DNA of 47,293 bases from a virus. Positions 2,831-25,626 of the stretch are shown piece after piece. The DNA lies in IMG/VR virus record IMGVR_UViG_3300046011_004234, positions 1 through 47,293 of that record; one strand, written 5' to 3'. The notes under the pieces were generated by a model that worked only from the letters and a program-made list of their open reading frames with translations, was not told the origin of the DNA and made no database searches. A program made the position numbers and the translations under genes. How positions within the stretch are numbered: the first letter of the stretch is position 1; each line of letters starts with the position of its first letter.

Positions 2831-3400
2831 ATGGCAGCTTCAGCAGATTTACAATTAGAACAAATGAAAGCAAACGCAGCGGCTCGACATGAGCAAAGTT
2901 TACTCGGAAGGTATGAGCAAGTTTCTCAGAATAAACCAGTGGGGATGTTATCTATGCCAAACACTGATTTACCTATGTTTACCGCATCTCAATTCGGTTC
3001 GTTTAAAACACCTCAACCTCAACAACCCGAAAGCGGTGGTATGAGTGTAATGTGTACTTTAATGCGCGAATACGGCTATCTTGAAGATGATGTATTTGAC
3101 GCTGATACTTTATTTGGGCATTTGATCGCAACTACTCATCCAGAAGTCCTTATCGGCTATCATGCGTGGGCAAAACCACTAACTGAATTCTTGCGTAACA
3201 ATGCGATTTATATCCCGTTATTTGCTTATATTGTTCAAGCATGGGCATATGAAATGGCAGAGCAATTTGGCATTGTAAAAAATCGCAGTACATTTAAACG
3301 ATTAGTTGGTAAAATAGTGATGAATGTAGGTAAGCCAATTTGTGGGTTTATTGGAACAGTAATTTCATCACAAGGAAACTATGAGTATCACCGGACTTAA
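2831..3400 (+). CDS. Conserved-type phage protein near tail genes, 189 aa
   Basis: The start is preceded by AGGT at suitable spacing. The first 60 residues are polar and helical. The second half is a compact domain beginning with MSVMCTLMREYGYLEDDVFD, then a stretch with GYHAWAKPLTEFLRNN, and a hydrophobic tail with several aromatics and Cys171. Small proteins of this pattern (Cys-x3-x-G-x-L, then GYxxWA) are common beside tail genes of podoviruses, but I know of no assigned function. The gene ends inside the next gene (20-base overlap), which suggests translational coupling to the cupin/oxygenase gene. Confidence 0.6.
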   Translation: MAASADLQLEQMKANAAARHEQSLLGRYEQVSQNKPVGMLSMPNTDLPMFTASQFGSFKTPQPQQPESGGMSVMCTLMREYGYLEDDVFDADTLFGHLIATTHPEVLIGYHAWAKPLTEFLRNNAIYIPLFAYIVQAWAYEMAEQFGIVKNRSTFKRLVGKIVMNVGKPICGFIGTVISSQGNYEYHRT

Positions 3401-4265
3401 CGTACAAGCACATCACTTTATTGGCGGAATCTATGCCAAAGAAGTGATTATTGATGATGGCTTTGAAGTTCAGCAACACGCTCATACCTTTGATCACATG
3501 AGTGTTCTTGTTGAAGGATGCGCTATAGTTTGGCAAGGTGATACTCAAGAAACCTATTTTGCCCCTGCTGTGATTGAAATTAAAGCCGGTATTGAGCATA
3601 GCGTTCAAGCGGTTAACGGTAGAGTGGTTTGGCTATGTATCCATGCTACAGCTACTTGTGATGCAGAAAATATAGATGACGTGCTTATCGGCAAACCCAA
3701 TATGGTCAATACCGGTATTCATGTTGATGTATCGGCTATCAATAAATTTATTTCTGATAATGATTATTTATGGAATAAATTTAAACAACGTACTGAATCG
3801 TCTAAATCACCACATAGGGAAGTAGATGATATCTGGGTTCGCTATAATGATATTAAAAATTATAATCCATCGAACCCTTTAGCATTTCATGATGAACACG
3901 ATAGCGTTTTCTATATTAACGATCAGAAATTTAAAGATGAAATTGCTAAGATTAGCCGTGCAATTTGTGAAAAACACAATATCCATAAAACAGAATTTGG
4001 TGGCATTTTAATTACTCGTATCCCTGCCGGTAAACAAGTTTATCGTCATAACGATGCGCATAGCTGGCACGCAGAATACTATAAAGATAAATATTTAATC
4101 TCTTTAGAATCCAATGATAAGCAATCTTTTAACTACGAAGGGCAATCTATTACTACTCCTGTGGGTGATATATTTAGTTTTAATAACCTTGTTGACCATT
4201 GGGTGTTAAATGATTCGGATTCACCACGGGTTAGTTTAATAATTTGTATGCGCCATAACGCATAA
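3381..4265 (+). CDS. Cupin domain fused to a 2-oxoglutarate/Fe(II) oxygenase-like domain
   Basis: This 294-residue protein starts within the previous gene, with AAGGA before the ATG. Residues 10-90 form a cupin-like barrel: His33-x-His35-x3-His39, then Gly46, and a distal His73 after a Gly-containing turn give a plausible metal site. Residues about 120-294 resemble aspartyl/asparaginyl-hydroxylase-type 2-oxoglutarate oxygenases: His223-x-Asp225, distal His273 and Arg283 match the HxD...H...R pattern that binds Fe(II) and 2-oxoglutarate. The likely reaction is hydroxylation of a protein or small-molecule target; the substrate is unknown. The gene lies between virion genes and tail-fibre genes, so modification of a virion or host protein is possible. 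Domain calls are by motif only. Confidence 0.75.
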   Translation: MSITGLNVQAHHFIGGIYAKEVIIDDGFEVQQHAHTFDHMSVLVEGCAIVWQGDTQETYFAPAVIEIKAGIEHSVQAVNGRVVWLCIHATATCDAENIDDVLIGKPNMVNTGIHVDVSAINKFISDNDYLWNKFKQRTESSKSPHREVDDIWVRYNDIKNYNPSNPLAFHDEHDSVFYINDQKFKDEIAKISRAICEKHNIHKTEFGGILITRIPAGKQVYRHNDAHSWHAEYYKDKYLISLESNDKQSFNYEGQSITTPVGDIFSFNNLVDHWVLNDSDSPRVSLIICMRHNA

Positions 4266-15192: not shown

Positions 15193-15207
15193 CCTTAACT
15201 TAACTTA
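15187..15207. promoter_or_regulatory. 21-bp repeated motif, site A
   Basis: The + strand reads AGTCAACCTTAACTTAAC and then TTA. It differs from site C (22851-22871) at two of 21 positions. The core TTAA-C-TTAA is a dyad, as expected for a dimeric regulator. Confidence 0.55.
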
Positions 15208-17445
15208 TTTTAATGCACGAAGTAAGTCAGATTGCACAATATCTTTATCTTTCAATACGTTAATGATTCGCTCGTCAATGCAGCCTTTGCAGATTAAGTG
15301 GATAATCCTTACCGCCATAGTCTGTCCTTGCCGGTACAATCGAGCATTAAACTGCTGGTAATATTCCAAACTCCAGCTCAGTGAAAACCACACAATCATG
15401 CTACCACCGTGTTGGATATTAAGACCGTGACCGGCAGAATTATGTGATATGAATACCTCCCCATTATTATTTCGTACAAGAAATCTATTTCTTGTACCGC
15501 AATCCACTAAATCAAATACTTCCGAGAACGTCGGTTTTTCGGATACTTTGAATTTAAATAATTGGTCACAGCATCCTCTGGAGTCATTCCTAAATTTAAA
15601 CGAGGGGTTATCGCTCCTCTGCTTATGTTCACAACCCTGCAAAATTCTGACAAGTGCATTTGTTTGCCTTTGTAAACTAAAACCCTGTTGTTTATTTTGT
15701 TTGCTTGTTGTTCCATATTTGTTGCCCATCGGCAATTGTCTTTGGAATAACCTTTTGAATTGTCTATCCGATCTAAAGTTAGATTGTCTGAATATGTTTC
15801 TTTCATATCTGAATAAAAATTCTTGAAGTCTAACCATTCTTTCGCAACGCCCTTGCCTTTTCCACCATATAGAATATAGCTTCGATCGTATTCTTTCGTT
15901 GCTCGACTTATCATCCCCTTCCAAATACTCCAAATTCTTGTATTTGTCATTAAATGAAAGTTTTCTTTTACGCATTTTGAACAATGTTTTCTGTTCTCTT
16001 TGTTCGCTCTTAAAACATTTTGTTTTAATATTGTGTGTATTTCCCCGCAATGGCAACATTGAGCTAAGGTAAGCGTCAGTTCCGCTGTAGCTGTAATTCG
16101 CTTTTCTTCTAGTATGGATATTATTTTGTACATTTTTTGCTTCCACCCATTTGTCATCGATAAGTATTTTATGATTCTCGGTCATGGTTATCCCCATCAC
16201 ATCAATCACTTCTTTTACACCAGAAAAATGACACCCGCTATGGCTTACAAATTCAATACCATCAAAAACACGTTCGTCTTTTTTCACATCGACAATCTTA
16301 GTCCATCCTCTATGTTCAGTCAACACTTCAGTCGATGGATGTAAACAAGCCGGATGAGCAAATAGAAGGGGTATTTCGCCATTGTTCCATTCATCAATAG
16401 TGCTTTGATGCTTATCGAGAACTCGTGCATTAGGAAAGCGTTTAAGCAATCGCTCAATATCGCTTTTGAAGTTATAGGCAACAAGGATATTCTCCCCATC
16501 GTTCTGCTCAATAATGTCTGCAAGCGCATCAAGTTTTGCATCATGGACTATTTCATAGTTTTTAAACTCATCGACGTACACAGCACCAGCGCAATACTGC
16601 AATAACTTATTGGCAAGTGTCGCTGCGCTCAATGCTTCAACTTCAGACTCCTCAAACTTCAAATAAAGTTTTTCTTCAAGAAGTTTATAATTGTTCATTA
16701 CTGTAGGTGCTAATTCAATTTCTTCATATAATTCAATGTAGTCTGGCATTTCAAGATAATCACTCGTTTCCATTGATATCGTAAATGGCGCTATCAATGC
16801 TTCAATTTTCTTTTGTGAATCTTTGCGAGGGGTATATTTGTAACCGCTGTAATCCTGTTCAAAGAATCGGCTTTTATACATAGTCATGGTTCGCCCAAGT
16901 GCTTTACCGTTATCTACTAAATAGCATTGCGACCACAAGTCAAGCAAACCATTTGGCGAAGGTGTTCCTGTAAGAAGGGTAATGTAGTGAACATACGGCA
17001 ATGCTTTGCGTAGTGCTTTGACACGTTTGCTTTTATCGCTTTTAAAACTACTGGATTCGTCAATAACCACCATTTGAAATGGGAACTTATCCCTATAGTG
17101 ATTTACTAACCAGACCACGTTTTCTCGATTAATAACATAAACGTCAGCGTCATGGTGGAGGGCAGCTAGGCGCTTTTGCTCTGTACCTGTGCAGATTTTG
17201 AATTTTAAATCTTTGAGATGCTCCCATTCCTTTGCTTCTTGCGCCCAGACGCTATTAGCTACTCTCAGTGGCGCAATAACAAGCGCTTTGGTAATCACAC
17301 AAGCATCAATCAAATCGTTGATTGTAGTGAGCGTAGAGGCTGTTTTCCCCATCCCCATTTTAAGCGCACAAAGTGTTCGCTCTTGTTCAATTTGAAACGC
17401 GGAGGTTCTGACTTGGTAATGACGGAGTTCTGCTCTAGTGCGCAT
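15205..17445 (-). CDS. SNF2/DEAD-like helicase interrupted by an in-frame intein
   Basis: The preferred start is ATG 17445 (GGAAGG upstream, 11-base overlap with the VRR-NUC gene), giving 746 residues; an upstream start at 17517 is unlikely. Helicase motifs: I KMGMGKT (29-35), II IDESSS (128-133), III LLTGTPSPNG (157-166), and after the intein V SAGHGLNIQ (670-678) and VI QFNARLYRQGQ (698-708). The intein lies between Ala366 and Ser670 (Cys367-Asn669); splicing would restore PASAGHGLN. Without it the helicase is about 443 residues, usual for phage SNF2 proteins beside VRR-NUC and polymerase genes. It probably unwinds or remodels DNA in replication. Splicing must occur for motifs V and VI to join the rest. 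Confidence 0.9.
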   Translation of the reverse strand: MRTRAELRHYQVRTSAFQIEQERTLCALKMGMGKTASTLTTINDLIDACVITKALVIAPLRVANSVWAQEAKEWEHLKDLKFKICTGTEQKRLAALHHDADVYVINRENVVWLVNHYRDKFPFQMVVIDESSSFKSDKSKRVKALRKALPYVHYITLLTGTPSPNGLLDLWSQCYLVDNGKALGRTMTMYKSRFFEQDYSGYKYTPRKDSQKKIEALIAPFTISMETSDYLEMPDYIELYEEIELAPTVMNNYKLLEEKLYLKFEESEVEALSAATLANKLLQYCAGAVYVDEFKNYEIVHDAKLDALADIIEQNDGENILVAYNFKSDIERLLKRFPNARVLDKHQSTIDEWNNGEIPLLFAHPACLHPSTEVLTEHRGWTKIVDVKKDERVFDGIEFVSHSGCHFSGVKEVIDVMGITMTENHKILIDDKWVEAKNVQNNIHTRRKANYSYSGTDAYLSSMLPLRGNTHNIKTKCFKSEQREQKTLFKMRKRKLSFNDKYKNLEYLEGDDKSSNERIRSKLYSIWWKRQGRCERMVRLQEFLFRYERNIFRQSNFRSDRQFKRLFQRQLPMGNKYGTTSKQNKQQGFSLQRQTNALVRILQGCEHKQRSDNPSFKFRNDSRGCCDQLFKFKVSEKPTFSEVFDLVDCGTRNRFLVRNNNGEVFISHNSAGHGLNIQHGGSMIVWFSLSWSLEYYQQFNARLYRQGQTMAVRIIHLICKGCIDERIINVLKDKDIVQSDLLRALK
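15439..16347 (-). other. Intein within the helicase gene (303 residues)
   Basis: The N-terminal splice block is CLHPSTEVLTEHRGWTKIVD with the nucleophile Cys1. Block B is MGITMTENHKIL with the TxxH pattern. The C-terminal blocks are EVFDLVDCGTRNRFLV and the terminal GEVFISHN, followed by Ser as first extein residue. These meet the requirements for splicing. The penultimate His and final Asn are present. The roughly 190 residues between blocks B and F show no endonuclease motif in this frame; they are Lys/Arg/Gln/Phe-rich and are the out-of-frame reading of a nested endonuclease gene (15507-16133). Confidence 0.88.
15507..16133 (-). CDS. Homing-endonuclease-like gene nested out of frame in the intein
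   Basis: This frame differs from the helicase/intein frame. I prefer ATG 16133 (GGAAG at good spacing; 208 aa) over ATG 16157 (216 aa, no ribosome site); a TGA lies eight codons further up. The protein has a zinc-ribbon-like pair CCHC and CSKC (near residues 26-29 and 51-54), then RIWSIWKGMISRATKEYDRS, YGGKGKGVAKEWLDF, and the signature LTLDRIDNSKGYSKDNCRWA of a widespread phage and bacterial homing-endonuclease-type family. A C-terminal helix-turn-helix (KQMHLSEFCRVVNISRGAIT) follows. It would cut intein-free alleles and promote intein spread. Its ends overlap the splice-domain coding at both sides. Separate translation is inferred. Confidence 0.82.
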   Translation of the reverse strand: MYKIISILEEKRITATAELTLTLAQCCHCGEIHTILKQNVLRANKENRKHCSKCVKENFHLMTNTRIWSIWKGMISRATKEYDRSYILYGGKGKGVAKEWLDFKNFYSDMKETYSDNLTLDRIDNSKGYSKDNCRWATNMEQQANKINNRVLVYKGKQMHLSEFCRVVNISRGAITPRLNLGMTPEDAVTNYLNSKYPKNRRSRKYLI

Positions 17446-17734
17446 AATCGCCTTCCACTGGTAATCGATAAAGCAATAAAGTATCAACGCTTTCTTTTGA
17501 GTCAATGACATAGACATGGACGCCTAATTCACGTCGCCTTTGATGATCTCGTTCTTGCGCTTCAGTAGGTTTCTTTTTAGGCGCTTTGCATTCAACAAAG
17601 AACATCGGCTGAAATGGTAAAGTAATTAAACGGTCTGGAACGGATCGACGATTAGGTGATGTGAATTTTTCACACGTTCCACCAACCTTTTTGACTTGAT
17701 CGCACAAGTATTTTTCAATTTCTTTTTCAAGCAT
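17435..17734 (-). CDS. VRR-NUC domain nuclease
   Basis: The 99 residues form a small PD-(D/E)xK nuclease of the VRR-NUC family. The catalytic pattern is seen as RRSVPDRL (Asp34 in the first motif), then FFVECKAPKK (Glu48, Lys50) and the helix TEAQERDHQRRRELG. Stand-alone VRR-NUC proteins accompany SNF2 helicases in many phages and are thought to cut DNA structures or act in replication and repair. It overlaps the polymerase gene by eight bases and the helicase gene by 11, so all three are likely co-translated. Confidence 0.88.
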   Translation of the reverse strand: MLEKEIEKYLCDQVKKVGGTCEKFTSPNRRSVPDRLITLPFQPMFFVECKAPKKKPTEAQERDHQRRRELGVHVYVIDSKESVDTLLLYRLPVEGDYAH

Positions 17735-23103: not shown

Positions 23104-23115
23104 CGAGGATTGTTT

Positions 23116-25626
23116 ATGGTGGCGTCTACTAAAACGTACCGCATAAGTCGCGGGGATAAGAACAGCGCTGTCTGTCGCAATAAAGAGGTGACATGGGAGC
23201 GAATTTGCACGGTACTTGGTAAGCACAAAGTCGCAAAGACCAAAGAGCAGGAAGGCTGGTTCTGTGGCGGTGGGTTCAGTGGTGGTTATCGCAACACAGA
23301 GAACCTGCTTGGGCGTTCGCTTTTGACCATTGACGTTGATGAATGCGCAATGAGCAAAGGCGAGATTGAGTTCGAGCTGGAGATGACCGGCTTTGCGCTG
23401 GTTGCGTACTCAACATGGCGTAGTACAGATAACGCTAATCGCTTTCGTATAGTGCTACCACTGTCACGGGAGGTCAGCGCGGAGGAGTACGTTGCCGTGA
23501 TGCACTGGTTCGCGTCGGAGTTTAGCAGTTTTATTATTGATGACAGTGCTTTTAAGCCTGCTCAGTTTATGTATATGCCAAGTGTTAGCGCTGGTTCGAT
23601 TGAGTCGGCTTTCGTGATGGTGATGGAGGGCAGTGAGGTTGATGTGGAGGTAGCGCTTGCCTTTCCTGTTGAAAAGCTGGTGCAGGGAACTGTCAAGGAA
23701 TACTTGACAACTGAATTCGATGTGGATGATACGGATGATGACGCGGATGATATGCAGGGACTCTCGCTTGCACTCGCGCATGAACCAATTGATGTCAGTG
23801 ATGCACTGGTTGAAGCCAATCTCGATGCACTGGTTGAAGCGGCAGGTGATTACTCGACGTGGATTACCGTCGGGCAGGCATTGCATCATCAATATAGAGG
23901 ATCGGATGAAGGGAAGTTGCTTTGGCTTCACTGGTCTGCTAACTCGGATAAGTTTAACGCGGCAGATATTGACCGCAAATGGCAATCATTTAAGACGGAA
24001 AAGAAAGTACGCCCGTTGACGTTTGCCACAGTGATTAAGATGGTCAAGGACAGTGGGGTAAGTGTTGGGGAGATTGTCGAGAAGCAGGTGAAAGAAATCT
24101 TTGTCACTGGGTCGGAAGGTCTGTCGGTTGATAATGACCGTGCGTATGAGGATGTGCGCAATAAGTTGCGTAAATTACCACTCAGCGCTGTGACATTAAC
24201 CAAGCGTCAGCAAATCGCACAGGACATTTACGACCGCTGGGGTAAAGGTGAGGGGATGACGAAGTCAGCCATTGTTCGTGAGCTTTGCCCACCGAAGAAG
24301 GGCGGACTGGTTGTTGAGGAGATGCCGTCGTGGTTGAACAACTGGGTTTATGTACAACGACCAATGGAGTTTCATAACTTAAAGCACGGCTACTCTATCA
24401 AGCGCGAAGCATTCAACGCGGAGTTTGATCGCATGGATGAATGCGTCGCAGCGGAAAGATCAGCATCGTCGATGGCGCTCGTTGATTGGAAAATGGATAC
24501 AGTCATCGATACCATGTACTGGGCGAGTAAGAATGATGGGATTTTCGTTAATGATAACGATGGACTGCGGTATGTAAACTCGTATAAGAAGCGCGGTGTG
24601 TTGCCATGTGAAGTGATGGACGACGATGGGTTGCGTGTTGTGGATATGATGCTCAAGCACTTGGAATTTACGCTGGTTGAACCTAAAGAAAGGGCGATAC
24701 TGCTGGACTGGATGTGCCATGTTGTGCAAAACATTGGTAGCAAGGTGAACTGGGCAGTGCTTTTGCAGGGTACGCAAGGTGGCGGTAAAACATACTTTAC
24801 TCGCATTTTGCAGGGAATACTTGGGTCGAATGCCACGCAACTTGATCCTAAACAGTTCACGAAAGGGACGTTTTCGGGATGGGCGTATGGTTCAGTGTTG
24901 AATATTGTTGAGGAGATAAGACTATCTGGTGATAACCGCTGGTCGATTATCGATACTATGAAGCCATACATTACAAACGAAACGATACAAATTGAAGAAA
25001 AGTTTTCTAACTCTCGGACTGTTCCGAATTTCACGTCGTATTTTCTTTTGACTAATTACCAAGATGCTTTGCCGATTACCAATGGTGATAGACGTTATTG
25101 CGTTTTGTATAGTCGCTGTCAGTCGGAGGAACATTTGTTTGCACTGCTTGGTGGTGAGCAGGAAACCAACCGGTATTTTGAGAAACTGTTTTCAGAAACT
25201 GATCGACGGATGGATGCACTTTGCCACTACTTTATGAATCGGGTGATAAGCGCGGATTTTTCAGCGAAAGGGCGAGCGCCTAAAACCTTGTCGCGTGAAA
25301 AGATGATCGGCTATTCTGTGTCGCATGAATTTGAAGAAGTAAAAGATTTGATTGCACATTACCACTGCGAAGTCATTAACGAAAACATAGTCGATATTAC
25401 ATTGCTGGGGAAACTTAATTTTGAGGAGTTTGAACCTTCAGTTTTAAAGCTCCCGAAAACGTCAGCGCTGACTCGGATACTTTTACAGATTGGCTACGAG
25501 AAAGTTCACAAGAGAATCGATGTACCGACAAGCGATGGAGGGCGGAAAAAACACACGATTTGGCGTAGAAGCACGTTTGACGAGAATGAAGCAATCAAGA
25601 AAGTTAAGGAGTATTACAAGATTTAA
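23116..25626 (+). CDS. Primase-helicase: AEP-like primase, PriCT-2 and VirE/DUF5906 superfamily 3 helicase
   Basis: The ATG at 23116 has GAGG upstream; a TTG six bases earlier is possible. The 836 residues divide into a primase-like N-terminal domain with TIDVDE (Asp73, Asp75) and RSTDNANRFRIVLPLSR; a PriCT-2 region at about 230-300 (LVEAAGDYSTWITVGQALHH); and a C-terminal VirE/DUF5906 ATPase with Walker A GTQGGGKT (552-559), a downstream LNIVEEIRLSG Walker-B-like segment and TSYFLLTNYQDALPI sensor region. It would prime and unwind the genome at the origin. It follows the Cro-like gene by 12 bases and is followed by a terminator and the candidate origin. Confidence 0.88.
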   Translation: MVASTKTYRISRGDKNSAVCRNKEVTWERICTVLGKHKVAKTKEQEGWFCGGGFSGGYRNTENLLGRSLLTIDVDECAMSKGEIEFELEMTGFALVAYSTWRSTDNANRFRIVLPLSREVSAEEYVAVMHWFASEFSSFIIDDSAFKPAQFMYMPSVSAGSIESAFVMVMEGSEVDVEVALAFPVEKLVQGTVKEYLTTEFDVDDTDDDADDMQGLSLALAHEPIDVSDALVEANLDALVEAAGDYSTWITVGQALHHQYRGSDEGKLLWLHWSANSDKFNAADIDRKWQSFKTEKKVRPLTFATVIKMVKDSGVSVGEIVEKQVKEIFVTGSEGLSVDNDRAYEDVRNKLRKLPLSAVTLTKRQQIAQDIYDRWGKGEGMTKSAIVRELCPPKKGGLVVEEMPSWLNNWVYVQRPMEFHNLKHGYSIKREAFNAEFDRMDECVAAERSASSMALVDWKMDTVIDTMYWASKNDGIFVNDNDGLRYVNSYKKRGVLPCEVMDDDGLRVVDMMLKHLEFTLVEPKERAILLDWMCHVVQNIGSKVNWAVLLQGTQGGGKTYFTRILQGILGSNATQLDPKQFTKGTFSGWAYGSVLNIVEEIRLSGDNRWSIIDTMKPYITNETIQIEEKFSNSRTVPNFTSYFLLTNYQDALPITNGDRRYCVLYSRCQSEEHLFALLGGEQETNRYFEKLFSETDRRMDALCHYFMNRVISADFSAKGRAPKTLSREKMIGYSVSHEFEEVKDLIAHYHCEVINENIVDITLLGKLNFEEFEPSVLKLPKTSALTRILLQIGYEKVHKRIDVPTSDGGRKKHTIWRRSTFDENEAIKKVKEYYKI

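Follow-up and report, generated by a model that had tools for sequence, protein, structure and literature searches.

Organization of the Locus

The stretch of viral DNA analyzed here, referred to as the window, comprises the 47,293 bases of IMG/VR record IMGVR_UViG_3300046011_004234. On its minus strand, a phage helicase gene carries an intein, within which an HNH homing endonuclease gene is nested in a different reading frame. The features of this locus are as follows.

15205-17517, minus strand: open reading frame (ORF) of an SNF2/DEAD-type phage helicase, the host of the intein; 770 aa, uninterrupted (phrog_62 profile match)
15439-16347, minus strand: intein of 303 codons, from Cys391 to Asn693 and followed by Ser, with LLFAHPA before it and SAGHGLN after it, at helicase motif V
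16120-16347, minus strand: N-terminal splice region with blocks A and B (58-67% identity among divergent helicases that are themselves 30-39% identical; Foldseek matches are inteins)
15520-16119, minus strand: overprinted linker, i.e., the HNH gene read in the intein frame, predicted to be disordered (pLDDT mostly <45)
15439-15519, minus strand: C-terminal splice region with blocks F and G (VFDLVDCGTRNRF...FISHN), from an 11-lineage alignment
16140-16144, minus strand: Shine-Dalgarno (SD)-like GGAAG, 6 nt upstream of the nested ATG (anti-SD energy comparison)
15507-16133, minus strand: nested HNH homing endonuclease gene in the +1 frame of the intein, 208 aa (conserved ATG, phrog profiles, AlphaFold)

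The true start of the helicase may be Met25 (17445) rather than the start of the ORF. In several relatives (L012 at 3083-3809, L017, L021, L030-L032, and L035), a DNA methyltransferase gene is inserted at nucleotide ~82 of the helicase ORF, which suggests the downstream Met25 as the start. The identity of this insertion was read in L012 and L017; it had been considered as a possible intein and was rejected as such, being a methyltransferase gene. Elsewhere, the window contains a 4346-aa ORF matching DarB-like antirestriction and giant phage proteins (32395-45435, plus strand) and a primase-like protein (23110-25626, plus strand), with nearby replication genes (helicase, polymerase, SSB, and DUF2800) on the minus strand.

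With regard to the intein, the expected criteria are satisfied in the window: a nucleophile at position 1, TxxH in block B, a terminal HN, and S/T/C at +1. Across the 11-lineage alignment, C1, T56xxH59, and H302 N303 are invariant, as are many other splice-block residues, and the +1 residue is S or C in the lineages aligned. The AlphaFold model of the intein is of low confidence (mean pLDDT 44), with a weakly predicted splice domain and a disordered linker; likeness to a HINT-type splice domain comes from Foldseek searches with this model, which returned mostly inteins with weak E-values. The lone sequence match to a solved intein, itself weak, was obtained with the A5 profile (NEQ068, E = 0.0035), and a Pfam search of the window intein gave no match reaching the threshold. 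Its identity as an intein is supported by the motifs, the weak structural matches, and this single weak sequence match, while splicing remains inferred.

The nested product matches the HNH family profiles phrog_3377 (5e-43) and phrog_374 (6e-41), and its AlphaFold model is folded (mean pLDDT 84). A Foldseek search with this model yielded nothing useful, and no solved relative of the HNH protein was found by sequence. The first histidine of the classical motif is replaced in the window, where the sequence reads DRID, so that catalytic competence is only assumed from the family.

An earlier note on this DNA had placed an intein with a nested out-of-frame HNH gene at 15439-16347, and this assignment proved exact to the base, with the intein frame open throughout the HNH gene. 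It had also stated that both ends of the HNH gene overlap splice-domain codons; indeed, the start lies within W-x-E-A-x-x-V of the N-terminal splice domain, and the stop (15507-15509) within VFDLVDC of block F. Among the two ATGs that it had offered as starts, the second (16133) is conserved, but the first (16157) is not a conserved start.

Conservation of the Nested Reading Frame

The same nested relation is present in about 30 divergent helicase inteins. A nested start codon is located at +214 nt from Cys1 in all 30 helicase lineages (27 ATG, two GTG, and one TTG). For the 27 lineages with an ATG start, predicted pairing with the anti-SD averages -7.1 kcal/mol at the nested starts versus -2.3 kcal/mol at the background, defined as other out-of-frame ATGs in the same genes (P = 6e-13). 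Every HNH relative at the level of 42-57% identity (L089-L096) is likewise nested in a helicase intein, out of frame and with the same phase. In every helicase case, the HNH gene occupies the +1 frame and not the intein frame, and the defining criterion of a canonical intein is therefore unmet. A search for homologs sharing the frame relationship, proposed in the earlier note as a check, revealed that it is shared exactly. The search yielded no homolog with this endonuclease fused in frame, so that the refuting condition named in the note was not fulfilled.

Chance is excluded as the origin of the open intein frame because synonymous shuffling of the window HNH gene predicts 16.8 stops in the intein phase, whereas none is observed; the third frame has 27. 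Each of the 11 core lineages is likewise free of intein-frame stops, compared with 6-17 in shuffled sequences (P ≤ 0.0006 each). For all complete lineages, the shuffled range is 4-17 and the observed number again zero, and host-frame stops are absent from all 43 nested loci tabulated. By comparison, 38 free-standing HNH relatives collected from genomes contain 4-39 stops in the intein phase, and not one of the 38 lies within a larger ORF.

An ordinary in-frame HNH intein masked by sequencing or assembly indels would give the same picture if two frameshifts of opposite sign were present, and broken copies do occur at single loci, such as L191, where a frameshift disrupts both frames, and the degenerate L199. 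However, recurrence refutes this explanation: about 30 helicase lineages, found in different metagenomes, show the same phase; in addition, the architecture is present in cultured phages, both HNH ends overlap splice codons, and stops are avoided in the intein frame. At least seven other viral contigs with 97-100% amino acid identity to the helicase have the same arrangement, and the window thus does not reflect a local sequencing error. Masking by indels can be set aside with near certainty, and recurrence together with the splice-codon overlap bears out the previous argument that a simple pair of frameshifts cannot account for the arrangement.

Programmed ribosomal frameshifting, which would produce a fusion of the N-terminal intein half (IntN) to HNH rather than a separate protein, is a further alternative, given that phages use frameshifting and that the overlap would permit it. 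Against such a fusion, in L090 and L096 the open HNH frame extends only 9 nt upstream of the ATG, the position of the start codon is fixed in all lineages, and the SD is stronger than the background, although no systematic search for slippery sites was carried out. The conservation of the start codon and SD disfavors the fusion, which is considered very unlikely, and internal initiation of a free HNH protein is preferred.

Selection on the Two Frames

Substitutions were compared in three close pairs (452 substitutions in total). HNH-silent changes reached 2.3-fold of the expectation and HNH-replacing changes 0.63-fold, corresponding to a dN/dS of about 0.28. Within each HNH class, silent and replacement changes in the intein frame were equally tolerated in these close helicase pairs. 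Identity of the linker-frame amino acids in distant pairs is only slightly above simulation, providing no clear constraint. Changes that replace linker residues are less frequent in the polymerase pairs, an observation confounded by codon-position effects. Across 11 lineages, the HNH protein has 46 invariant columns. The HNH-biased substitution pattern indicates selection on the HNH protein, with the intein frame mainly having to stay open; the comparison of constraint in the two frames that had been suggested beforehand thus uncovers purifying selection on HNH and a linker that is open yet nearly unconstrained.

Mobility and Loss

Near-identical hosts include both occupied and empty alleles, thereby satisfying the criterion for a mobile intein. 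Helicase alleles lacking the intein were identified at 94-97% DNA identity (L010, L011, and L018) and at 89% (L015), with CATCCTCAA joined directly to TCAGCCGGT at the site. The codon at -1 encodes Ala in 8/8 occupied alleles (CCGGCT, Pro-Ala) and Gln in 12/12 empty alleles (Pro-Gln), a split that is, as judged from these sequences, a co-conversion mark of homing. Moreover, identity between helicases is 57-68% in the splice blocks but only 24-40% in the host proteins, and in a different phage (L162) DNA similarity to the window is confined to the intein plus a few dozen nucleotides on its flanks.

Loss of HNH after invasion is indicated by mini-inteins that keep the splice blocks without HNH (L189, L192, and L194) and by an internal deletion of HNH in L174. 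Such losses are what might be expected of a decaying intein, in which HNH no longer functions and its frame has stayed open merely as a result of selection on the helicase. This possibility is improbable when set against the dN/dS of HNH in close pairs and its invariant columns, the near-identical window-type HNH in several contigs, and the co-conversion marks, and maintenance of HNH as a selected protein is the favored interpretation. As a separate observation, L189, L192, L194, and L211 are mini-inteins derived from or related to nested forms and represent candidates for natural small splicing elements.

Recurrence in Other Inteins and Phages

The nested architecture is also found at three sites in DNA polymerase A inteins of cultured phages and, with an unrelated DUF559-type (Vsr-like) nuclease nested in +1 phase, in a helicase intein at the Walker B site.

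DNA polymerase A intein, nested HNH, +1 phase: APSE-1 and Caulobacter RW
DNA polymerase A intein, nested HNH, +1 phase: Gardnerella AB1 and Streptococcus Javan104
DNA polymerase A intein, nested HNH, +2 phase: Sodalis SO-1, Salmonella VT223, Ent1, E. coli Pubbukkers, and Pseudomonas MR14
Second intein of the same helicase in close relatives of the window phage, at the Walker B site (between VVVDE and C), out-of-frame DUF559/Vsr-like nuclease: L029 3382-4398; also L030-L036 and L213-L221

Phages carrying the polymerase inteins include Salmonella Jerseyvirus, Dhillonvirus, SO-1, and APSE-1. Matches to at least 80% of the SO-1 HNH occur in 173 phage records, of which only some had the frame checked. 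The Walker B intein with nested DUF559 is carried by relatives of the window phage, Vibrio CP-T1, 159E43-1b, 1.194.O, and Pseudomonas MR14. In L220 (1951-5097), a single helicase ORF contains two inteins, with nested out-of-frame DUF559 and HNH, respectively. The use of two nuclease superfamilies implies that the architecture arose at least twice, and the opposite phase suggests a third origin.

GenBank entries for the DNA polymerases of APSE-1 (P45/P46, L206), SO-1 (gp38/gp39, L203), and Ent1 (gp37) have the same architecture. The APSE-1 P46 and SO-1 gp39 records annotate HNH inside the polymerase gene without recognizing the architecture, and only splicing domains are labeled in the Ent1 intein record. 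In the SO-1 record, the nested HNH is attributed to a type I self-splicing intron. An RNA-level element of this kind, a group I intron with an HNH ORF inside it, would be in line with the annotation of gp38/gp39 and with the frequent presence of HNH genes in group I introns. However, the host frame is open throughout, splice-block residues are conserved, and an Rfam search for intron RNA found none in L002, L012, L029, L089, L203, L206, or the window. The annotation is thus unsupported by Rfam, and the group I intron was rejected, with hardly any probability left to it; a protein-level intein is retained as the explanation.

Relation to Known Systems

In canonical mobile inteins, such as PI-SceI and the Synechocystis GyrB HNH intein, the homing endonuclease is encoded in frame, between blocks B and F. 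The window intein resembles them in its splice blocks, its insertion at conserved catalytic motifs, its empty and occupied alleles, and the location of the endonuclease between blocks B and F. It differs in that the endonuclease belongs to another frame and another polypeptide, which would be free without splicing and separately expressible, expression being inferred. Split inteins of the gp41-1 type, as Dassa reportedly described in 2009, lie in fractured genes and are accompanied by a free-standing Vsr-like endonuclease. A separately translated endonuclease between intein halves is common to both arrangements, but the criterion of a split intein in a fractured gene is unmet in the window, where host gene and intein remain one continuous 770-aa ORF. 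The nearest PDB entry to the Walker B intein with nested DUF559 is gp41-1, through which a link between this intein and the split inteins of fractured genes can be inferred.

Out-of-frame HNH insertions in phage methylases, namely the ShiLan domain and the Pacc40 insertion, have been reported by Arsenault, Gosselin, and Gogarten (2025, PMC11855218), who found no splice domain and concluded that the insertion is not removed from the methylase. The ShiLan HNH has a GTG start without an SD, and leaderless initiation in mycobacteria was proposed (PMC11855218). As in ShiLan, the HNH of the window is out of frame and lies in a mobile insertion across which the host phage gene stays open, whereas ShiLan has neither intein splice blocks nor an SD and the window intein has all splice blocks and an SD. 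Consequently, the statement in the earlier note that the architecture was not known to be described holds only in part: out-of-frame HNH without an intein has been published (PMC11855218), and the HNH genes of APSE-1 P46 and SO-1 gp39 have been annotated, although the intein architecture went unrecognized there. For overlapping frames in actinobacteriophages, PMC11855218 cites Gosselin et al. (2025, bioRxiv, 10.1101/2025.01.02.630785) and Gorbalenya (1998). As far as their titles and topics indicate, these concern actinobacteriophage inteins of non-canonical architecture and "Non-canonical inteins", respectively; they may overlap with the present finding, and priority is not claimed.

Proposed Mechanism and Implications

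Most probably, the locus is a mobile intein with a linker that doubles, in its +1 frame, as a distinct gene for the homing endonuclease, translated from an internal start. Translation beginning at the helicase start would continue through the intein, rendering the HNH region as a disordered linker of about 200 residues, and the two splice halves would fold together, allowing self-excision of the intein and release of an intact helicase. Other ribosomes would use the conserved SD and ATG located within the N-terminal splice region to begin synthesis of a free HNH endonuclease. This enzyme would cut intein-less helicase alleles of co-infecting phages, and repair would copy the intein and a few flanking bases into the cut allele. 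The sequences themselves show how the locus is built and conserved, how selection acts on its two frames, that empty alleles exist, and that a co-conversion mark is present; that the intein splices, and that HNH is translated and cleaves its target, is inferred. A dual-coded, separately translated endonuclease in a spliceable intein, as read in the earlier note, gains support from the shared frames and from selection, with splicing and expression inferred; the sequence comparisons indicate that the scope was understated, the architecture being recurrent, with two nuclease families and two phases.

Whether inteins with overprinted endonucleases constitute a widespread, mostly unrecognized class of mobile elements, with several origins (HNH in two phases and DUF559/Vsr-like) and forming a missing link to the split inteins of fractured genes, is at present evenly balanced. 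In such elements, the two activities of a mobile intein would be divided between two overlapping genes, an extensive form of dual coding where the main demand on one frame is that it remain open. The architecture would also explain phage inteins that seemingly lack an endonuclease (e.g., Ent1). Because phages of Salmonella, E. coli, Vibrio, Caulobacter, and Pseudomonas that carry it are in culture, its splicing, nested translation, and homing are directly testable. If this view is correct, a concrete route to split inteins is suggested, in which one stop and re-initiation within the linker would turn an overprinted intein into a split intein.
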